Origin: a virus
Reading direction: 5' to 3' (one strand)
Length of the DNA stretch: 29,218 nucleotides
Virus record (IMG/VR): IMGVR_UViG_3300002488_000044
Coordinates: 1-29,218 of that record
In this document: one piece after another, positions 1-20,784 of the stretch
How the letters are laid out: each line of letters begins with the position of its first letter
How positions within the stretch are numbered: position 1 is the stretch's first letter
Position numbers and translations under genes: made by a program
The notes under the pieces: model-generated
What the model saw: only the letters and a program-made list of their open reading frames with translations
Told to the model about the DNA's origin: nothing
The model's database searches: none

Positions 1-105
1 GCTTATGTCGGCGGTCGATGCGAGACACTTTTCTCTGGCGTTTATGTCAGAAAGAATGTGCCCGGATTGATTGCGATACTAAGTATGAATGGATTAGCGA
101 CATGA
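1..105 (+). CDS. possible 3' end of an upstream gene (partial)
   Basis: Frame 1 is open from the left edge for 34 codons and ends at TGA 103-105, which overlaps the ATG at 102 in the ATGA arrangement common in phage operons. The readable residues begin AYVGGRCETLFSG. I do not recognise the family from so short a piece. The alternative is that this is a chance open frame and the next gene begins further left, since frame 3 is also open to the edge. Confidence 0.3.
   Translation, partial: AYVGGRCETLFSGVYVRKNVPGLIAILSMNGLAT
76..96 (+). repeat. 21-bp direct repeat, copy 1
   Basis: This 21-bp stretch is identical to 389-409. It starts with the perfect palindrome ATACT-A-AGTAT (76-86), and the similarity continues weakly to the start codon (xCxACAT). 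It contains ACTAAGTA at 78-85, close to the ACTAWWTA octamer seen before the structural genes. It lies 5 nt upstream of the ATG at 102. It may be a promoter or operator duplicated in front of two consecutive genes. Confidence 0.85.
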
Positions 106-395
106 AGCAATTATTTGAAAATTGGCGAAAGCATTTGGTAGAATACGGATTAGATCAGGATGGCCAAGCTAACGCGTATGATCATTATTACGATATCAAA
201 CAAGCCATCGCAGCTGCTTTGACAGAGCAGGGCGATGATTGGGCTCTTGATGAGTCGGAATGGGAGGAAATTATAATTCCATCTGGCGGAAGCGAGCAAG
301 ATCATAATAGATTTATTCAAGAACTGCAAGCATTTATGCAAACTATGCAACTTGGTAAGGTAGAAGATTTAGGTGTCTCAATCGAACCATACTAA
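102..395 (+). CDS. small phage protein of unknown function with N-terminal helix tag
   Basis: A protein of about 97 residues if the start is ATG 102, beginning MKQLFENWRKHLVEYG. I chose this start because that N-terminus is a typical small amphipathic tag like those of several other genes here, because the ATG overlaps an upstream TGA, and because the repeat element lies just before it. An in-frame ATG at 18 (125 residues) and an open frame to the left edge are alternatives; neither start has a good Shine-Dalgarno. The body is acidic and helical with a WxxDExEWEE stretch. There is no transmembrane segment or known motif. It lies at the head of a run of tightly spaced small genes. The function is unknown; a minor virion or prohead-core protein is possible by analogy only. 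Confidence 0.6.
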   Translation: MKQLFENWRKHLVEYGLDQDGQANAYDHYYDIKQAIAAALTEQGDDWALDESEWEEIIIPSGGSEQDHNRFIQELQAFMQTMQLGKVEDLGVSIEPY

Positions 396-409
396 GTATG
401 AATGGATTA
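389..409 (+). repeat. 21-bp direct repeat, copy 2
   Basis: Exact second copy of 76-96, including the palindrome ATACTAAGTAT (389-399). It overlaps the stop codon of the preceding gene (TAA 393-395) and lies 22 nt before the ATG at 432. ACTAAGTA occupies 391-398. Confidence 0.85.
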
Positions 410-431
410 TCAACATAATAGGAGATTTATA

Positions 432-812
432 ATGGCTAGACGTAAAAACACAAAAAGGATTGATCCTCGTTACTTTTTGAACGAGACAACACACAGAGAT
501 GAGATTGAAGAAGGCTTCTCCGGAGGAGATTACTCCGGCGCCGACAGCACTGCCCGAGCAATGGGAAGAGATGATGCGCCGATAAGCACATCGTCAGGTG
601 CTAGAGTACCAGAAGCATATCAGGCGCTAGCCGATAAACTTATTCAACAGGGCAATGATGCTCGCAAAGTAGAGAAGTCAATTAATGCCTGCTCAGAAGA
701 GTCCCTTCAGGGCGGCCGTGATGCTTTTGTAAAATGTATGTATCGTAAAAACACTTCTTCTATCTATGCTATGCAAGATTTAGGAATGATTCCACAACAA
801 AAAGGCGCATAA
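432..812 (+). CDS. small basic/acidic phage protein with paired cysteines
   Basis: 126 residues, starting MARRKNTKRIDPRYFL. ATG 432 is preceded by AGGAG (420-424) at good spacing, so it is preferred to the upstream in-frame ATG at 402. The N-terminus is basic, followed by a Gly/Ser/Asp-rich linker. The C-terminal part is helical and contains a Cys, 14 residues, then Lys-Cys (INAC...VKCMYRK). The same C-x14-C spacing, also with KC, appears in the next gene, so the two may share a small helical-hairpin module. There is no signal peptide or membrane segment. The next gene begins 2 nt after the stop, so the two are likely co-translated. I do not recognise the family and the role is unknown. Confidence 0.65.
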   Translation: MARRKNTKRIDPRYFLNETTHRDEIEEGFSGGDYSGADSTARAMGRDDAPISTSSGARVPEAYQALADKLIQQGNDARKVEKSINACSEESLQGGRDAFVKCMYRKNTSSIYAMQDLGMIPQQKGA

Positions 813-814
813 AA

Positions 815-1255
815 GTGAGAATTTCCAGAGCCAGACTTAGAGAGATCATTAAAGAAGAAGTTACTGTAGCCCTAGACGAAGAAGAAGACGGCACTTTGGA
901 AGATCTTGCCAGTATGTTTGGTGAGTTGGCTCCGGAATTAGACGATATAGTGGCGGTGTTGCAAGACATGCCAGAGGATCAAAAGCAGTTGGCTGTAAAG
1001 CAATTGCTTTCTCAGCTTGGCGATGAAGGCGACGTTGAAGGTTTAGATGACCCCCTTATGCAAGGTATTGAGATGCAGAATGAATATGGATTTGGTGGCA
1101 AGACGGGTGGCTTGGCTGCAGTCGCTGGGCGCCAGCCAGGAAAACGCGATGATGAAGATAATCCTTGGGCAATTTGCACGGCATCAGTCGGCCGCGAAGA
1201 CAAAGAGAAGTACGAGAAGTGCGTTAAGAGCGTGAAAAAACAAAACAGGAAATAA
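815..1255 (+). CDS. small acidic phage protein with N-terminal RLREIIKEE tag and C-x14-C tail
   Basis: 146 residues starting at GTG 815, two bases after the previous stop. It begins MRISRARLREIIKEE, a short basic-then-acidic amphipathic helix shared in pattern with the genes at 2608 and 3471. The middle is strongly acidic (DEEEDG, then a helical stretch with PEDQKQLAVKQLL). The C-terminus contains NPWAICTASVGR...KYEKCV, with two cysteines 14 residues apart, followed by a lysine-rich end. I know this tail only as a pattern of small marine-phage proteins, without a function. The N-terminal helix could be a capsid-targeting peptide removed by the prohead protease, as in T4 internal proteins, which is an inference. 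Confidence 0.7.
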   Translation: MRISRARLREIIKEEVTVALDEEEDGTLEDLASMFGELAPELDDIVAVLQDMPEDQKQLAVKQLLSQLGDEGDVEGLDDPLMQGIEMQNEYGFGGKTGGLAAVAGRQPGKRDDEDNPWAICTASVGREDKEKYEKCVKSVKKQNRK

Positions 1256-2245: not shown

Positions 2246-2621
2246 AGACATAAATAAAATAGCAGCAGTTGAGAAGGCTATATCTGAAAAGTACGGAGAG
2301 GACACCGTTGCCAATCCTCGCGCAAATTGGGATGAGGAAAAAGAAAAAGAATATCTCTCTCAAATGAAAGACTTTTATAAAAAAATAGATAAGAATGAAC
2401 AGTGGCAAAAGAAAGTTGATATAAATGGCATAAAGGTATCAAAAAAACTACTTAATAGAGAATCTTTAGGATGTTGTCCTGTCTGTGAATCCTTTTCAAA
2501 GATATCTATGGACGATGTTTGCCTCGCCAAATTTGATTGCTGCAGTAAATGCTACTATCAATATGTCGAAGGCAGAGAAGAAAGATGGCTAAAAGGATGG
2601 AGACCAAATGAAAATAAGTAA
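2235..2621 (+). CDS. small CxxC zinc-binding-type protein
   Basis: 128 residues from ATG 2235, overlapping the previous gene. The first two thirds are charged and helical. The C-terminal part has CCPVC, about 21 residues, then CCSKC, followed by YYQYVEGREERWLKGWRP. Two CxxC knuckles suggest a structural zinc site of treble-clef or ribbon type. The conserved aromatic and basic tail could contact nucleic acid or protein, but that is a guess. There is no membrane segment. I recognise the CxxC...EGREERWxxGWRP arrangement only as a recurring marine-phage pattern of unknown role. It overlaps the following gene by 14 nt, consistent with translational coupling. Confidence 0.65.
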   Translation: MKGKDINKIAAVEKAISEKYGEDTVANPRANWDEEKEKEYLSQMKDFYKKIDKNEQWQKKVDINGIKVSKKLLNRESLGCCPVCESFSKISMDDVCLAKFDCCSKCYYQYVEGREERWLKGWRPNENK

Positions 2622-2922
2622 AAAACAACTTAAAGAAATCATCGAAGAAGAACTTAGTAAAGTAAAGGAAAATGTAAGACCTGATGTTGCACGCACTCAA
2701 AAGATGATGGACACAAGAGGAATCACTAAGCTGGTTGCTGCAAAAATTAATACTTGGCAAGAGCTACAAGGGTTCCTTGCAGGTATGTTGCAGAGTGTCA
2801 AAGTCAAAGATAACCAGAAAACAATGGTCTTAAGAAAGCTCTTAAGACAACTCCAGGGTCAGGGTGGTGGAAGCGCCCCGGGTGCGGAAGCACCGGCACC
2901 TCAACAAGGAGCAGCAGAATAA
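2608..2922 (+). CDS. small protein with N-terminal KKQLKEIIEEE tag
   Basis: 104 residues. The N-terminus MKISKKQLKEIIEEELSKV is nearly the same pattern as MRISRARLREIIKEEV at 815 and MNISRPDLYRIIVEEY at 3471. The middle is helical (TWQELQGFLAGML, VLRKLLRQL). The C-terminus is a disordered Gly/Ala/Pro/Gln tail. It starts inside the previous gene, and its stop overlaps the next start (TAATG). The function is unknown. If the N-terminal helix is a prohead-targeting tag, this would be an internal or core protein, but nothing else in the sequence proves that. Confidence 0.65.
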   Translation: MKISKKQLKEIIEEELSKVKENVRPDVARTQKMMDTRGITKLVAAKINTWQELQGFLAGMLQSVKVKDNQKTMVLRKLLRQLQGQGGGSAPGAEAPAPQQGAAE

Positions 2923-3470: not shown

Positions 3471-4001
3471 ATGAATATTTCTCGTCCTGATTTATACCGG
3501 ATTATTGTCGAAGAGTATGTCAAGGACACATACCTCGACGAAGCACTTAGTCCAGAAAAGACAGCTGAGCTTTTAGCTTGGATTAAGGGCGAAGGCCCAA
3601 GGCCCGAGTGGGCAACTGATGATTATGGCTCCTCTGGCTTAGGCAAAGGAATGCAGTCTGCTACAGATTCTAATGTAGATAGATCTGCAGACACTATGCC
3701 ATTTCCCGCCGATGATATTCCATCAGATGACGCACCAGAGAGTGAGTATAGCGGTTTCCAAGATCGCGCCGGTCCACCTTTGGAAGATCAGCTTATGGAT
3801 CTGATTCAAGGTTTACCACCAGAAGAAGTGTCCGATTTATTTCAGGCAGTATTTGAGAAGATCCCCGGTGTTGAGATGGGCCCCGCAGAAGAAGAGCCGG
3901 AAACACTTTATTCTCCTGGCGCCGAGGGCCGACCACAAGTTGGATTTAGACTTGAAGAACTTGTGCACCTTATTCGGGAAGTATTAGCAGAAAATGTATG
4001 A
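3471..4001 (+). CDS. acidic protein with N-terminal ISRPDLYRIIVEEY tag, directly upstream of terminase
   Basis: 176 residues from ATG 3471, 7 nt after GGGGGA (3458-3463); this beats the TTG at 3468. The N-terminal helix MNISRPDLYRIIVEEY matches the tag pattern of neighbouring genes. The middle is a long acidic, Pro/Ser/Gly-rich linker. The C-terminal end RLEELVHLIREVLAENV is another amphipathic helix of similar style. The terminase start overlaps its stop (ATGA), the place where T4 has the small terminase gp16. However, I see no helix-turn-helix or central coiled-coil ring domain, so I do not call it small terminase. A core or packaging accessory role is an inference. Confidence 0.6.
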   Translation: MNISRPDLYRIIVEEYVKDTYLDEALSPEKTAELLAWIKGEGPRPEWATDDYGSSGLGKGMQSATDSNVDRSADTMPFPADDIPSDDAPESEYSGFQDRAGPPLEDQLMDLIQGLPPEEVSDLFQAVFEKIPGVEMGPAEEEPETLYSPGAEGRPQVGFRLEELVHLIREVLAENV

Positions 4002-5581
4002 GCTTTCAATTAGACAAAAAGCAGAGGGTCCAAGAAATATTAAAATGTGGCAAAGACCCATCGTACTTTCTTAAAAACTATGCCCGTATATCTCACCCGA
4101 TGCACGGGCTAATCCTTTTTGACACATATAGTTTTCAAGATGATTTGTTGAAAGATTTCAACGACTATCGATTTAATGTTATTTTAAAAGCACGCCAACT
4201 TGGAATCTCGACGATTACCGCTGGTTACATTGTGTGGATGATGCTTTTTCATCGCGACAAAGCCATTCTTGTTATGGCCACCAAGTTCGCAACAGCAGGA
4301 AACCTTGTAAAGAAAGTAAAGAACATCATGCGCAACATACCAGACTGGCTCAAGATTGCAACGATCACTGTCGATAACCGCACTTCATTTGAACTTTCCA
4401 ACGGTTCTTCAATTAAAGCGGCCTCGACCTCTGGAGATGCAGGCCGCTCAGAAGCATTGTCTCTCCTGGTGCTTGATGAGGCCGCACACATTGAAGGTTT
4501 GGAAGAATTGTGGACCGGACTGTATCCTACTCTATCAACTGGTGGCCGGTGTATTGCACTTTCCACACCTAACGGTGTAGGCAACTGGTTTCATAAAACC
4601 TGTACGGACGCAGACGCTTCTGCTAATAATTTTAACTTAACGACGTTGCCATGGGATGTGCACCCAGATAGAGGGGAAGAATGGTACAAAAAAGAAACTA
4701 GAAATATGTCCAAGAGACAAATTGCACAAGAGCTTGAGTGCAATTTCAATACTTCTGGTGAAACGGTAATCGATCCGGAATGTATGGATTGGCTTTTGGG
4801 CAATGTGTGCGAACCAAAACACAGAACGGCCTTCGATCGCAATTTTTGGATTTGGGAAGAGTTTGATCCGACTTGTAATTATTTAATGGTAGCCGATGTC
4901 GCAAGAGGCGATGGCGCAGACTATTCTACATTTCATATTATAAAACTAGAGACCTTAGAGGTTGTTGGTGAATACCAAGGAAAACCAACTCTAGACATGT
5001 TTGCAAACTTGTTGAACCAAGTTGGAAGAGAGTTTGGTGGCTGTATGCTAGTAGTAGAAAACAATAACGTTGGTTATTCCGTACTGGATAAGTTACTTGA
5101 ATTTGGATACCCGAATTTGTATCATTCAATAAAGTCGACTCACGAATACATAGAACAACACCAGGCAGAAGTACGAAACAGTGCGGTACCAGGTTTTACG
5201 ACCTCTATGAAGACACGCCCACTCATCGTAGCTAAATTAGAAGAGTTTATAAGAAACAAACTAATTAAGGTATATTCTACTCGAACAATTAATGAGTTGA
5301 AAACATTTATTTGGAGAAACGGAAAACCACAAGCAATGAAAGGCTATCACGATGATTTAATCATGGCACTCGCTATAGCATGCTGGGTTAGAGATACGGC
5401 CCTTCAAGCGAACGCTAGGGAACTCAATTATCAAAAAGCTTTTGTAAGTGCTATCAAAACATCAAAAACAAGCTTTAACACTAGAATTTCAGGGCAACAT
5501 GGCTACAAAAAAGATAACGCATTTGATAAAATGACAGAAACCAAAAAAATGTATGAACAATATAAATGGATTATAAAGTGA
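3998..5581 (+). CDS. gp17: terminase large subunit, gp17-like
   Basis: 527 residues; the DNA-packaging motor, with an N-terminal ATPase and a C-terminal headful nuclease that docks on the portal. Visible motifs: Walker A-type KARQLGIST (64-72), Walker B LLVLDEAAHIE with catalytic Glu (156-166), coupling motif STPNG (189-193). The RNase H-like nuclease has acidic residues in ADVARGDGADYS (D300 and D305/D308), VVENNN (E354) and HDDLIMA (D452/D453). T4 gp17 is 610 residues, so this one is shorter mainly at the ends. ATG 3998 overlaps the preceding stop, and the portal gene follows 8 nt after the stop. No recognisable gp16 lies beside it. The assignment is secure from the complete motif set. Confidence 0.95.
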   Translation: MSFQLDKKQRVQEILKCGKDPSYFLKNYARISHPMHGLILFDTYSFQDDLLKDFNDYRFNVILKARQLGISTITAGYIVWMMLFHRDKAILVMATKFATAGNLVKKVKNIMRNIPDWLKIATITVDNRTSFELSNGSSIKAASTSGDAGRSEALSLLVLDEAAHIEGLEELWTGLYPTLSTGGRCIALSTPNGVGNWFHKTCTDADASANNFNLTTLPWDVHPDRGEEWYKKETRNMSKRQIAQELECNFNTSGETVIDPECMDWLLGNVCEPKHRTAFDRNFWIWEEFDPTCNYLMVADVARGDGADYSTFHIIKLETLEVVGEYQGKPTLDMFANLLNQVGREFGGCMLVVENNNVGYSVLDKLLEFGYPNLYHSIKSTHEYIEQHQAEVRNSAVPGFTTSMKTRPLIVAKLEEFIRNKLIKVYSTRTINELKTFIWRNGKPQAMKGYHDDLIMALAIACWVRDTALQANARELNYQKAFVSAIKTSKTSFNTRISGQHGYKKDNAFDKMTETKKMYEQYKWIIK

Positions 5582-10352: not shown

Positions 10353-10961
10353 ATGTCTAAAAAACTTTTAAGAGAATACTATGCTTTATGCGACGGTGGC
10401 GTATGCCAGGATCTTTTGACCGAGGATGAAAAGCGTTATGTTGCCGATGGCGGCATGATTCTTTCTGGCATTATGCAGATGACCGAAACTAAAAATGGTA
10501 ATGGTCGGGAGTACCAGCACGAAACTATGATACGCGAAGTCAAGAACTATCAAAAGCTTATTAAGGAAAACCGCGCTCTTGGGGAACTTGATCACCCTGA
10601 TGATTCGGTGATCAATTTAAGAAACTGCTCCCATATGGTCACTGCTATTTGGATGGAAGAAAAAAATGTTATGGGCAAAATTAAAGTGCTCGATACTCCA
10701 TCTGGAAAGATATTAAAAGAATTAGTAAATGGTGGAGTTACCGTTGGTGTCTCGTCACGCGGTATGGGTTCTGTCCGCGAAGAAGCAGGAAGGACAATAG
10801 TAGAAGATGATTTCCAATTGATCTGTTTTGATATGGTTTCCGAGCCATCAACACCCGGCGCGTTTATGATGCGCGAAGCAAAAGAATTTAACAATAATGT
10901 TTTCACAAAGGCCGACAAAATTAACCGGCTCTTAAATGAGGTTTTAAGTGAACAAGACTGA
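10353..10961 (+). CDS. gp21: prohead maturation protease, gp21-like
   Basis: 202 residues, close to T4 gp21 (212). A serine protease of the T4 prohead endopeptidase family that cleaves the scaffold core, the gp23 N-terminus and internal proteins before packaging. Diagnostic blocks: NGNGREYQ (48-55), RALGELDHP with catalytic His81, GKIKVLDTPSGKILKEL (108-124), and GVSSRGMGS with catalytic Ser134 or 135. DDFQLICFDMVSEPSTPGA follows. It starts 4 nt after the previous stop, with GGAGC upstream of ATG 10353. The next gene begins inside its end at GTG 10948. The N-terminus MSKKLLREYY resembles the small tag seen elsewhere in the cluster. Confidence 0.94.
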   Translation: MSKKLLREYYALCDGGVCQDLLTEDEKRYVADGGMILSGIMQMTETKNGNGREYQHETMIREVKNYQKLIKENRALGELDHPDDSVINLRNCSHMVTAIWMEEKNVMGKIKVLDTPSGKILKELVNGGVTVGVSSRGMGSVREEAGRTIVEDDFQLICFDMVSEPSTPGAFMMREAKEFNNNVFTKADKINRLLNEVLSEQD

Positions 10962-13646: not shown

Positions 13647-15224
13647 ATGGCTTATAAATTTCAAATCGGCCAAGCAGCACTTTCAGGTGCGCTTGAACAA
13701 GCCGGTGAAGTTACATTCCTTAATGGTCAAGGACCTGAAGGCGAAAACATTACTAGGTTGAAAAACTTAGTTATCCTTGAGGATGGTAACGTCGACGTTC
13801 CACGACACAACGGTACTATCGGGCTTCAACTCGGTGGCGCTGCAGTTACTTCGACTGCTGCCGAGATTAACTTACTCGACACAGCGGTTGCTGGAACAGT
13901 TGTCAACAGCAAAGCTGTAATCTACAGTGCTGCTGGTATTGTTCAGGCTACTGACTTTAAAGGTCCTGATGGATTCGATATCGGTAACGCTAGCAATGCA
14001 GACGCAATGAATTTTGGTGCTGCGGAAATCACTGTCAAAGATGGCGTTGATTTCTCGGTTGCTACAGTTGGTGGCTTCAACTATGGTGGCGCTGCAGTTA
14101 CTTCAACTGCTGCAGAGCTTAACTTGCTCGACACCGCGGTGGCCGGTACAGTTGTTAATAGCAAAGCTGTTATCTACAGTGCTGGTGGTATTGTGCAAGG
14201 TACTGGCTTCAAGGGTCCTGACGACGCTGAAGTTGGTAACGCAACTAACGCTGACTTGCTGGTACTTGGTGCAGCCAACGTTACTGTGAAAGCGAACAGT
14301 GACTTAACTGTTGCTAAGGCTGGTGGTCTTAACCTTGCTGACGGCGCAGTTACTTCGACTGCTGCTGAACTTAACTTACTCGACGGCTCATCCGCTGGCA
14401 CGGTTGTTAACAGCAAAGGTGTAATCTACGGCGCTGCAGGTCAGGTTATCGGAACATCATTGTCTGCTTCTACTGGTATTACCGGTAGTTCAATCGTAAT
14501 CGGTGCTGCTGGTACTACAGGTGCTACCATCACTAACACTGGAGTTATCCTGGGTACTCAACACTTGGCAGTTGGCCCAACCGCGACAGTATCCTGCTCG
14601 GCGGGTATCACTGGTAGTTCGTTCCTCGTAGCGGGCGGCTTTGGTGTAACAAACTCTGGTTTCGTTACTATTCCTAAGCTTGGCGCTGAATTAGATGCTG
14701 ATGGTGAAAACATTATCGGTATTGGTGATCTTGGTGTTGATGGCGTTGCATCGTTCAACGGAAACATTGATCTTGGTAACGCAACTTCTGACACCATCAC
14801 AGCTACTGGTCGTTTCGACTCGGACCTCGTTCCTTCTACCGACTCTGCACGTGACTTAGGTACCGATGCTCTTCGCTGGAGAAAAATCTACGCTGATGAA
14901 ATCGTTGGTGCTGATACGACCTTGGATGTTGGACACTATGGTGCGTCCCCGTACGTAACTACCATCTCTGGTTCAACTGACTTCGCTCTTATCAAGTCTG
15001 GATCTACCACTGGTCTTGGCGGTGCTATCTATACACTTCCATCGGCTGTTCAAGGTAAGGTTCTTCATGTCAAGCTTTCGGGCTCACAAGCGAACGTTAC
15101 TCTTAAATGTGCTGCAGATGATTCAATCGAAGATTCCGCAGCCGCTGGTTCAATTTTCCTTGAATCAACCGGCTCTGCTGTTACCTTGGTTGCTATGGAT
15201 GCAACTCACTGGTTCATCATCTAA
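13647..15224 (+). CDS. large virion surface/fibre protein with TSTAAELNLLD repeats
   Basis: 525 residues from ATG 13647, with a strong GGAGGG ribosome site. Order: an N-terminal region (MAYKFQIGQAALSGALEQ), three 84-residue repeats each opening with AAVTSTAAE(I/L)NLLD and AGTVVNSKAVIYS, Gly/Thr-rich strands, then the fibre motif STDSARDLGTDALRWRKIYA, and a C-terminal module ending HWFII. The TSTAAELNLLD motif is common in fibre-like proteins of marine phages. Codon use is visibly more biased (GCT, GGT, AAC, GTT) than in nearby small genes and resembles that of gp23, suggesting high expression. A bidirectional-looking inverted repeat and a clear terminator follow the gene. It is likely an abundant head or tail surface protein; which one is unknown. 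Confidence 0.72.
   Translation: MAYKFQIGQAALSGALEQAGEVTFLNGQGPEGENITRLKNLVILEDGNVDVPRHNGTIGLQLGGAAVTSTAAEINLLDTAVAGTVVNSKAVIYSAAGIVQATDFKGPDGFDIGNASNADAMNFGAAEITVKDGVDFSVATVGGFNYGGAAVTSTAAELNLLDTAVAGTVVNSKAVIYSAGGIVQGTGFKGPDDAEVGNATNADLLVLGAANVTVKANSDLTVAKAGGLNLADGAVTSTAAELNLLDGSSAGTVVNSKGVIYGAAGQVIGTSLSASTGITGSSIVIGAAGTTGATITNTGVILGTQHLAVGPTATVSCSAGITGSSFLVAGGFGVTNSGFVTIPKLGAELDADGENIIGIGDLGVDGVASFNGNIDLGNATSDTITATGRFDSDLVPSTDSARDLGTDALRWRKIYADEIVGADTTLDVGHYGASPYVTTISGSTDFALIKSGSTTGLGGAIYTLPSAVQGKVLHVKLSGSQANVTLKCAADDSIEDSAAAGSIFLESTGSAVTLVAMDATHWFII
13830..14450 (+). repeat. 252-bp tandem repeats inside the surface gene
   Basis: Matching GCAGTTACTTC(G/A)ACTGC blocks start at 13842, 14094 and 14346, exactly 252 bases apart. 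The second unit keeps the peptide almost unchanged, and the third diverges after about 100 bases. Codon-level differences between copies are mostly synonymous. The outer limits are approximate. Confidence 0.85.
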
Positions 15225-17787: not shown

Positions 17788-19623
17788 ATGTCTAGTATTA
17801 TTGAACGTTTGACCGAAGGTATGGTCAATCGTGATATGCATGCCGAAGGACATGCATTGTTAAACAAATGGGAAAAGACTGGTCTTCTCGAAGGACTTGA
17901 TAGCAGTCGCACCCGTAGCACTATGGCTCGTTTGCTTGAAAACCAAGCTAAAGAGCTTCTTCGCGAGAGCAGCAGCATGGCTGGTGGTGACGTCGAAGGT
18001 TTCGCAGCCGTCGCATTCCCCATCGTCCGTCGCGTTTTCGCAGGACTGATCGCAAACGATCTCGTTTCCGTTCAGCCGATGAGTCTGCCAAGTGGTCTCA
18101 TCTTCTTCCTCGACTTTACAGTCGCAACTCCAATCAGCAGCGCTGATGACAACAACGACATGACCCGTTTGGGATATGTCTCGGCGAGTTCACTCTATGG
18201 TGGCGGTCGGGTTGGTTCCGATATCATCAGTGGTGCCATTCTTAAGGATCAAGGCAGCGTATTCGCTGATCAAGCTCCTTACAACTTGGCAAACGGCTAC
18301 TCGTCTCCGACGGGCTCAGCCGCTGGTAATGGTGTAACGCTTACACCACAGAAGGTAAGCTGGAGTGCTTGGGGACACGCAACCGGTTCTGCAGTAGACA
18401 AGTTGGCTCGTTATGATGCAGACTTTGTTTCTGGTTCAACTGTTGTTGCTGTTGTATCCGTACTTCTTAGCGGTCTTGATCAAGTCGACAGGGACAACAT
18501 TGGTCCTCAGTCGTTCACGGTCTCTAGCTCCGTTGGTGATGGATTCCTTATAAACGGTGAAGATGAGGTTGTTGCACGTCAAATTCGTCGTCTTACTCGC
18601 GCAAGTGGTTCCGACGGCACTCGTCTGTTGGCATTCTTCACCGGCCCAGGTACAGACGGAAATGTTGTTCATACTGGTCACACTTCGGGTGATAAGCAGG
18701 CTGGCCATCTTGCTACGGCGGTTGCTCTCGCACTTACTGGTGCTAAGGCTCAAGTTAGCTGGCAACAAACTGATGATATCGTTCAAGCAGAAACGCTTGG
18801 TGCTGTTATTGGTCAAGCTGAGTGGGGCCTTGAAGGTGAGGCAAACATCCCAGAGATCGACATCAAGGTCGATTCTTCGGCGATTACTGCGCGTACCAAG
18901 AAGCTCAAGGCGAAGTGGACACCAGAGTTGGGTCAAGACCTCAACGCTTACCACAACCTTGATGCAGAGGTCGAGCTTACAAGCATCCTCTCTGAGCAAA
19001 TTGCTCTTGAGATTGACCGTGAGATCCTTGCGGACCTCATCAACGGTGCTAAGGCTGCTACCTACTACTGGTCACGCTCACCTGGCTTGTTCGTGAACCG
19101 CGATACTGGTGCCGAAATCGGTGCAAGCTCTGCGGCTCCTGACTTCACAGGTACCGTGTCCGAGTGGTATGAAACTCTCGTTGAAACTATCAACGATGTT
19201 TCTGCACAAATCCACCGCAAGACTCTGCGTGGTGGCGCTAACTTCATCGTCTGCGGACCTGAAGTTGCCAACATCCTTGAGTTTACCGCTGGATTCCGCG
19301 CTTCCGTCACACATGATGACGAGAAGGGTTCAATTGGAGCAGTTAAGGTTGGTTCCTTGACTAAGAAGTTCGACGTTATCGTTGATCCATACTTCCTCCG
19401 TAACGTGATCCTTGTTGGTCGCCGCGGCTCCTCTTTCCTTGAAAGCGGATATGTGTACGCACCATACGTACCACTGCAAACTACACCTACGATCTTCGGA
19501 CCAGAAGACTTCGTGCCACGTAAGGGAGTCATGACTCGTTACGGCAAGAAGATGGTCCGTCCAGATATGTACGGTCTAGTTGTTGTACGAGGACTCCTCG
19601 GAGAAGCCGGAGCTACTTCCTAA
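17788..19623 (+). CDS. gp23: major capsid protein, gp23-like
   Basis: 611 residues (T4 gp23 has 521). HK97-fold capsid protein whose N-terminal segment is cut by gp21. Diagnostic: GFAAVAFPIVRRVFAGLIAN followed by DLVSVQPMSLPSGLIFFLDF (about 71-110), IPEIDIKVDSSAITARTKKL with AKWTPELGQDLNAYHNLDAE, and the C-terminal PTIFGPEDFVPRKGVMTRYGKK. The extra length lies between about residues 115 and 330, the region that varies in T4-like capsids. AAGGAGGT before ATG 17788 is the strongest ribosome site in the window, and codon use is highly biased. No separate vertex protein gp24 is seen here. A strong terminator follows. Confidence 0.95.
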   Translation: MSSIIERLTEGMVNRDMHAEGHALLNKWEKTGLLEGLDSSRTRSTMARLLENQAKELLRESSSMAGGDVEGFAAVAFPIVRRVFAGLIANDLVSVQPMSLPSGLIFFLDFTVATPISSADDNNDMTRLGYVSASSLYGGGRVGSDIISGAILKDQGSVFADQAPYNLANGYSSPTGSAAGNGVTLTPQKVSWSAWGHATGSAVDKLARYDADFVSGSTVVAVVSVLLSGLDQVDRDNIGPQSFTVSSSVGDGFLINGEDEVVARQIRRLTRASGSDGTRLLAFFTGPGTDGNVVHTGHTSGDKQAGHLATAVALALTGAKAQVSWQQTDDIVQAETLGAVIGQAEWGLEGEANIPEIDIKVDSSAITARTKKLKAKWTPELGQDLNAYHNLDAEVELTSILSEQIALEIDREILADLINGAKAATYYWSRSPGLFVNRDTGAEIGASSAAPDFTGTVSEWYETLVETINDVSAQIHRKTLRGGANFIVCGPEVANILEFTAGFRASVTHDDEKGSIGAVKVGSLTKKFDVIVDPYFLRNVILVGRRGSSFLESGYVYAPYVPLQTTPTIFGPEDFVPRKGVMTRYGKKMVRPDMYGLVVVRGLLGEAGATS

Positions 19624-20463: not shown

Positions 20464-20784
20464 ATGGGCAAAAAACGCAGAATTATAGCTTCGGCAAAAT
20501 TCAAAACCAAACACTCAAATCATCCAACGATCAAAGGGTTGAATGTAACTAGTGAAACTACCACAACAGCTGACACAACAACAGATGAAACAACTGTAAC
20601 AGCCACCAACACGACAACAGGCACAACAGCTGTGACGACCGCCGGTGCAACTACCAAAACCGATACAGCACCCAAAATTAAAGTGACGGAAACGACAACA
20701 ACCGCAACAACCAAAAATACGACAAAAAAGACCACTAAGGCCACAATTAAGAGCACAAAGAGCACCAAAAAGAAGACATCCTAA
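20464..20784 (+). CDS. small Thr/Lys-rich low-complexity protein
   Basis: 106 residues from ATG 20464 with a good AAGGAG. Basic N-terminus MGKKRRIIASAKFKTKHSNH; 40 of 106 residues are Thr, arranged in TTTT and TTT runs with Ala/Asp/Glu in the middle and Lys in the last third (TTKNTTKKTTKATIKSTKST). It has no fold that I can predict. A Lys/Thr/Ala tail of this sort resembles histone H1-like DNA-condensing tails, which would fit an internal DNA-bound protein, while the Thr runs could equally be a flexible surface linker. The start pattern GKKRRIIAS...KF recurs in marine phages in my memory, without function. Confidence 0.55.
   Translation: MGKKRRIIASAKFKTKHSNHPTIKGLNVTSETTTTADTTTDETTVTATNTTTGTTAVTTAGATTKTDTAPKIKVTETTTTATTKNTTKKTTKATIKSTKSTKKKTS

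Follow-up and report, generated by a model that had tools for sequence, protein, structure and literature searches.

The window analysed here is a complete virus record of 29,218 bases (IMG/VR record IMGVR_UViG_3300002488_000044) in which family searches find the T4-type head genes, namely terminase, portal, prohead protease and Gp23. Its left edge cuts through a gene whose 3' end is followed by a series of small genes, and a short repeated element, referred to below as the joint, lies at the first two boundaries of this series. The features on which the argument depends are the following.

1..105, + strand: 3' end of an FtsZ/tubulin-like gene (the anchor gene), its start off the window; translation AYVGGRC...GLIAILSMNGLAT, then stop
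76..105, + strand: joint copy 1 (core 82-103), the anchor's last codons I-L-S-M-N-G-L-A-T-stop
103-105: anchor stop TGA, which overlaps the ATG at 102-104 of ORF 102-395 (ATGA)
102..395, + strand: cassette gene, 97 aa, with an LFENW-type N-terminal leader
102..143, + strand: leader of this cassette gene, MKQLFENWRKHLVE, ending in L-V-E; helix 2-14 in a low-confidence model
389..418, + strand: joint copy 2 (core 395-416), with the cassette gene's TAA stop (393-395) inside it
398-418, + strand: six-codon mini-ORF MNGLST-stop in joint copy 2
420..424, + strand: AGGAG, Shine-Dalgarno-like, for gene 432-812, seen in the sequence
432..812, + strand: next cassette gene, 126 aa, with an RKN...DPRYF leader (432-485) ending in L-N-E
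815..1255, + strand: gene with a K-I-T-K-type leader, MRISRARLREIIKEE, from its translation; beyond the repeat-flanked part
2608..2922, + strand: gene with a K-I-T-K-type leader, MKISKKQLKEIIEEEL, from its translation; beyond the repeat-flanked part
3998..5581, + strand: large terminase, T4 gp17-like (Pfam Terminase_6N, 1e-9), the right-hand landmark of the variable locus
10353..10961, + strand: prohead protease of the T4 gp21 family (Pfam Peptidase_S77, 1.5e-27)
17788..19623, + strand: major capsid protein Gp23 (Pfam Gp23, 1.6e-73)

An identical 21-mer had been described at 76-96 and 389-409 in the initial annotation, and this is exactly what lies there: the 21-mer is confined to these two places in the 29,218-base record even when 3 mismatches are allowed, the 11-base palindrome ATACTAAGTAT is present, and the two copies do stand 5 and 22 nt from the ATGs at 102 and 432. 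The further statement that the repeat precedes two genes is right as regards both ATGs, but the first copy is not intergenic; it supplies, in frame, the final codons of the FtsZ-like gene that is cut by the window's left edge (...KNVPGLIA-ILSMNGLAT, then stop). The second copy is not coding in the frame of the first and contains the stop of ORF 102-395. Similarity between the copies reaches 28 nt at 93% (76-103 and 389-416), and the unit gained, which consists of a joint and an ORF, measures 313 bp from start to start. Elsewhere in the window, three 252-nt tandem units, of which the two full ones are 74% alike, occupy positions 13821-14441 of a long ORF (13647-15224) that is fibre-like as judged by these repeats, and the six-frame list includes a small ORF at 20464-20784 that is largely threonine (TTTADTTTDETTVTATNTTTG...).

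In full-length relatives the anchor protein is FtsZ/tubulin-like and about 379 aa long. One such relative (L026:3487-4626) matches Pfam Tubulin at E 1.4e-7 with 32.4 bits, just under the cut-off of 33, and PDB FtsZ at 3e-10; against the NCBIfam ftsZ model it scores 9e-12 and 45 bits, far below the cut-off of 295, and by this measure the anchor protein is not an FtsZ equivalog. A GGGTGS-like motif is typical of the tubulin/FtsZ superfamily, and the anchor protein contains GGGGGTGSS; the GTPase domain match and this motif together place the anchor gene, as far as its sequence goes, in that superfamily. No match was obtained for the anchor protein by tblastn against 50,697 named phage records, or for the locus DNA against named phages. 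In the T4-superfamily phages of this clade the FtsZ/tubulin-like GTPase gene adjoins packaging genes. One contig, represented by L073 and L256, carries an endonuclease VII/HNH-like gene (L073:7916-8581, PHROG 1.5e-20) as an insertion at the 3' end of the anchor; the anchor C-terminus is replaced there, and the original 3' end now lies behind the endonuclease gene.

A search of relatives for the 21-mer found it exactly in 111 IMG/VR stretches, which is not attributable to chance. The full comparison comprised 275 loci including the window (2.8 Mb, some overlapping), gathered by scans with the 21-mer, the FtsZ-like protein (the best 80 of 156 relatives), the terminase (the best 80 of at least 599 relatives) and a second pattern; searching with the 21-mer selects for loci that have it, so the set is enriched, and two loci that could not be oriented (L019 and L105) were read as given. 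When up to 5 mismatches are allowed, a 22-base core of the element has 400 matches in these 275 loci, all of them on the gene strand and none on the opposite one; because the loci overlap, the copies are not independent. The reversed core pattern has 9 matches in the same 2.8 Mb. A nearly complete anchor end is present in 212 loci, 128 of them distinct, and further copies, up to six, follow downstream in 60 of the 128; as many as seven successive gene boundaries behind the FtsZ-like gene can carry the 22-28 bp repeat. The array lies between the FtsZ-like gene and the terminase gene, and several of its gaps hold leader genes (described below) that have no recognisable joint. Extra joints were found in 33 of the 72 anchor-scan loci in which the anchor ends in the element and 2 kb or more of sequence follows; sorted by anchor C-terminus, they accompany MNGLAT in 32/59, MNGLTT in 1/2, other MNG endings in 0/17 and the endonuclease-bearing locus in 1/1. 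Among whole records, 26 element matches are distributed over 14 of 15, with one cluster per genome, the fifteenth having none; one record (G006) has two copies 5.8 kb apart.

Comparison of 117 distinct anchor copies with 96 distinct other copies delimits the part that is shared, which runs from about offset -1 to +21 (AAGTATGAATGGATTAGCAACAT). Within it the commonest base accounts for a share of 0.71-1.00 at each place in the 96 non-anchor copies, against mostly 0.3-0.5 at offsets -30 to -11; the non-anchor copies do not have the coding sequence that lies to the left of the shared part in the anchor, and the DNA just 3' of this part varies together with the start signals of the downstream gene. 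The layout of a joint is the stop of the previous gene, TAAGT, and then ATG-AAT-GGA-TTA-GCR-ACA-stop, with this last stop overlapping or directly preceding the next start signals. The mini-ORF is intact in 84 of the 96 non-anchor joints and broken in 12, and its stop is kept in 95. A one-base overlap between the joint and the TAA of the previous gene is seen in 43 and a two-base overlap with another stop in 8, while in 5 the reading frame of the upstream gene stays open until the mini-ORF ends. An ORF follows 218 of 219 elements, with 96 ORFs starting at the ATGA overlap; a further 121 begin at a distance of 29-37 nt from where the core starts, and one at 23 nt. The conserved stop-start layout hints that the mini-ORF may act as a translational coupler; we infer this tentatively, because the stop-start pattern could also come by inheritance from the coding anchor copy. 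The 11-base palindrome, which is intact in 91/117 copies in FtsZ-like genes and in 24/96 other copies, is incidental. No compensated version of it occurs in any of the 117 anchor and 96 other copies, and its candidacy as a binding site was rejected, since the dyad is neither kept outside the anchor nor maintained by compensation.

The window's near relative L006, which lacks ORF 102-395, keeps a single copy of the repeat and has gene 432-812 directly behind the FtsZ-like gene. It aligns with the window over 1-103 at 97% and over 389-1300 at 95.5%, and the 313 bp between are absent. One suggestion in the initial annotation, that the repeats are the scar of a gene insertion at short repeats, is well supported by this single-copy site and by the extra copies at the boundaries of shuffled arrays. 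The gene family of ORF 102-395 was not found in any relative without the repeats: the window, L086, L108 and L194 all have both joints, the second of which differs from the 22-base core by 1, 5, 2 and 5 mismatches, respectively. (L065 and L114 are the window's own phage, 100% identical over 13.5-15.6 kb, and give no independent support.) A presumed transfer tract at 88-90% identity joins window positions 1-434 to L086, 1-427 to L108 and 1-416 to L194, in each case ending just past the second joint, while the remaining alignments of the window with these loci reach only 68-76%. Joint 2 of the window has the downstream form ACATAATAGGAGATTTATAATGG, as in L047 and L097 and unlike its near relative L006, so exchange took place within the joint. 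At a short similarity in L077, the first part of an RKN leader passes into the anchor 3' end; L077, L079, L081 and L073 have a longer left flank in common with the anchor than other copies do.

The genes between the joints are shuffled. The family of ORF 102-395 is followed by an RKN-type gene here, by an LLKxLW-type gene in L086, by a K-I-T-K-type gene in L194 and by an LFENW-type gene in L108. When families are defined at 65% identity and 80% cover, the 210 distinct cassette proteins form 166 families, 139 of them seen once; of the 10 families with a follower in two or more loci, 9 have different followers, and of the 29 seen in two or more loci, 21 have different predecessors. The loci L015 and L022 are near-duplicates. 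All of the joint-bearing loci are metagenomic, and short repeats could favour assembly chimeras; against this, the same units occur in different contigs, and alignments continue across joints. Taken as a whole, these patterns indicate that the repeat is almost certainly the joint of a hypervariable gene-cassette array in a marine T4-superfamily clade.

A second regularity lies in the cassette proteins themselves. One of four N-terminal leaders, recognised by regular expressions, begins 190 of the 210 distinct proteins: 75 are like MKITKQQLKQIIKEE, 52 like MKKLFENWRKHLNE, 45 like MARRKNTKRIDPRYFLNE and 18 like MNLLKRLWTGLV, and the classes are named K-I-T-K, LFENW, RKN and LLKxLW. The remaining 20 proteins begin otherwise, although several are plainly K-I-T-K variants missed by the expression. 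When one protein per body cluster is taken, and the three commonest classes (K-I-T-K, LFENW and RKN) are considered, leader conservation ends at a glutamate: E14/E15 at 98% (the next residue at 54%), E14 at 88% (next 29%) and E18 at 100% (next 61%). As a rule L, I or M stands two residues before this glutamate, often M in the RKN class, and the LFENW leader has another, earlier L-F-E at residue 6. The leader codons are nearly fixed across unrelated bodies (CCT in 23/23 cases and CTA for 21/23 leucines, as examples), which points to exchange of leader DNA. In 160 protein pairs the bodies match and the assigned leaders differ, a few of these being artefacts of class assignment, and more than one main leader occurs in 7 of 99 body clusters. 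Internal modules start at L-x-E in 9 of 17 cases against 4.2 expected, in a weak test whose cases are not independent.

Outer relatives with other anchor ends have genes with K-I-T-K leaders at the same place and no repeated joints, which implies that the leaders are older than the joints, and leaders and joints therefore need not form one system. In a 194-kb relative, LFENW-like leaders are also found at about 82.5-88.3 kb and at 183 kb, and K-I-T-K leaders near the contig end; the first of these groups (L281, G001 82.5-88.3 kb) is a second cluster of LFENW-like leaders (MKLLLENWRKYLNE, MKLLLENWRQYINE, MKLLIENWRRYLSE), far from the terminase locus. Two short leader queries gave no match among named phages, searches with queries this short being insensitive and no argument for absence. 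Pfam, PADLOC and PHROGs, applied to 150 of the 158 cassette representatives that reach 60 aa, returned only scattered single matches, FliG_C among them, and named no internal protein. Structure models of the window's cassette protein (pLDDT 65) and of a common body domain (L090, pLDDT 63, with an alpha-beta-beta-beta-alpha core) gave nothing below E 0.07 in a fold search of the PDB.

According to passages of PMC9026906, the gp21 protease of T4 cleaves after L/I-X-E, and the internal proteins of T4 carry targeting propeptides of 10-19 residues; further facts for this comparison come from passages of PMC3012670 and PMC5694885. Because the leaders end at L/I/M-x-E, and in view of the T4 cleavage site and propeptides, they can be read as capsid-targeting leaders, and on balance we favour this reading. 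The cassette proteins are most likely packaged in the head, with leaders of 14-18 residues that would be cut by the prohead protease, and the gp21-family protease of the window is the enzyme expected to cut them. Like the T4 internal proteins (IPI, IPII, IPIII and Alt), the cassette proteins combine short conserved leaders with small, diverse, non-conserved bodies, the leader end falls at L/I-x-E, and a gp21-family protease is encoded in the same genome. Unlike them, they have three to four leader types rather than one, their arrays contain up to seven joints made of a repeated DNA element, their bodies are unrelated by sequence search, and their packaging is deduced from sequence. The likeness to the T4 internal proteins is accordingly used as a working comparison, and the cassette proteins are not classed as members of that group.

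The way in which such an array might turn over follows from the form of its units. The joint reproduces the 3' end of the FtsZ-like gene, and each unit of the array consists of a 22-28 bp joint plus a small gene. Since the joints are alike and the 5' leader-coding DNA is alike, single genes could be added, dropped or swapped by ordinary phage homologous recombination, and exchange at the joints would leave reading frames and translation starts unbroken. The window would record one such step, with a 313-bp unit that is absent in L006, and the stop/start of the mini-ORF (MNGLAT) would couple the translation of any unit dropped in. The products would be packed in the head, trimmed of their leader by the prohead protease and injected, with an anti-host role. 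That the route is homologous recombination rather than the action of a dedicated recombinase seems likely. Recombination of T4 at microhomologies of 6-10 bp, by which it loses and gains genes including ipIII, is reported in a passage of PMC9391042, which adds that loss of ipIII blocks growth on one host; joints of 22-28 bp together with leader DNA would be ample for a route of this kind.

The best of the alternatives makes the repeats the scar of a homing endonuclease, whose cut at the 3' end of the FtsZ-like gene would drive the insertion of genes and leave the 3' end regenerated. The endonuclease VII/HNH-like gene of L073/L256, which lies exactly at the anchor 3' end as a free-standing homing endonuclease of T4-like phages would, speaks for this idea, but such an insertion is found in 1 of 128 distinct loci and is not the general rule. 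No homing endonuclease was found by family searches in the window's cassettes, and Pfam (E 0.001) found none in the 150 cassette representatives, although the L073 gene itself is also missed by Pfam. We regard this explanation as unlikely; homing at the anchor 3' end may be part of the array's origin, and it need not drive the array now.

Integron cassettes are single genes lined up in an array, every one bordered by a similar element of attC-like structure, and are moved by an integrase. The array described here resembles them in its units of site plus gene, its single orientation and its sharp border, and site-specific recombination by an unknown recombinase recognising the joint would produce such a form. 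Unlike integron cassettes, however, the joints have no attC-like structure or conserved inverted-repeat core, no integrase was found at the locus, and Pfam detects no recombinase domain among the 150 cassette representatives; the borders, moreover, are variable in L077, L079, L081 and L073, as expected from homology-driven joining. Recombination of this type is very unlikely.

The other suggestion of the initial annotation was a duplicated promoter or operator, with the palindrome as the binding site of a regulator, or the repeat as a promoter providing each gene with equal expression. The position of the repeat before two consecutive genes, and before many array genes, is what such an element would show, yet the data leave the suggestion unsupported. 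The element is restricted to one locus per genome in 14 of 15 whole records, the palindrome is lost in most non-anchor copies (kept in only 24/96), and copy 1 is coding sequence. Sigma-70-like sites occur at chance (2 found against 2.2 expected), terminator-like sites number 0, and RNA folding is no better than that of shuffles (z -0.35 and -0.66). The late-promoter box of T4 is TATAAATA, and none lies nearby. Regulation by the repeat is accordingly highly improbable. Another class of repeated DNA, the PeSLs, reportedly consists of early promoter and stem-loop cassettes of T4-type phages (work said to be that of Arbiol 2010 and Comeau 2014). Like the PeSLs, which a passage of PMC4503421 mentions, the joint is a short repeated DNA that borders shuffled genes in T4-type phages; unlike them, it copies a coding 3' end and carries stop/start signals, and no promoter or stem-loop was found in it. 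Neither the locus nor the joint is described in the titles, abstract openings or passages of the literature that were consulted. Ordinary tandem duplication, in which slippage copied the 3' end once and protein-level selection kept the anchor copy, agrees with the identity of the joint as the anchor gene's own 3' end but is hardly credible, and is refuted as a full account, given copies at many boundaries with shuffled genes and a second window copy of the ACATAATAGGAGATTTATAATGG form seen in L047/L097 and not in L006.

With homologous recombination at the joints retained as the preferred route, a likely description of the locus is a bank of swappable genes for head-packaged proteins, similar to the T4 internal proteins, that are exchanged by such recombination. 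A bolder version, which we put forward tentatively, is a head-packaged effector bank that would be integron-like without an integrase, in which the joint would supply both homology and a six-codon coupler and the products would be packed, trimmed and injected.

The closest terminase among named phages is that of Flavobacterium phage immuto (45%), and immuto and Microcystis phage Mel-JY01 have terminase, portal, protease and capsid genes in the same order as here; neither has an annotated FtsZ-like gene in the 9 kb upstream of the terminase. In immuto 13-6C (L287), K-I-T-K-like N-termini were seen by eye on several small proteins encoded near terminase, portal and prohead protease (MKKSQLRQIIKEALD and MKKSQIVKAVQEVLEE, for example), and the K-I-T-K leader type may thus occur in a cultured phage. 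Marine Bacteroidetes viruses include Far-T4-like viruses, as a passage of PMC7198788 notes. A contig in a Flavobacteriaceae metagenome-assembled genome (L289, PAAD01000063.1) contains an exact match to the 21-mer, an FtsZ-like gene, a joint and a gene with an RKN leader, and is probably a phage contig in a host bin. The Flavobacteriaceae-bin contig and the terminase match to immuto are weak hints of a Bacteroidota host.

T4-type phages are known to have a small number of internal proteins which, once injected, block the defences of the host. The uncultured marine clade described here apparently maintains an open-ended store of genes of this kind in one recombination locus with uniform joints. 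If this is true, the leaders would provide a simple sequence rule for finding candidate injected anti-defence proteins, and the joints would show how genes can be swapped without loss of expression. The exchange of leaders and bodies makes targeting directly testable.
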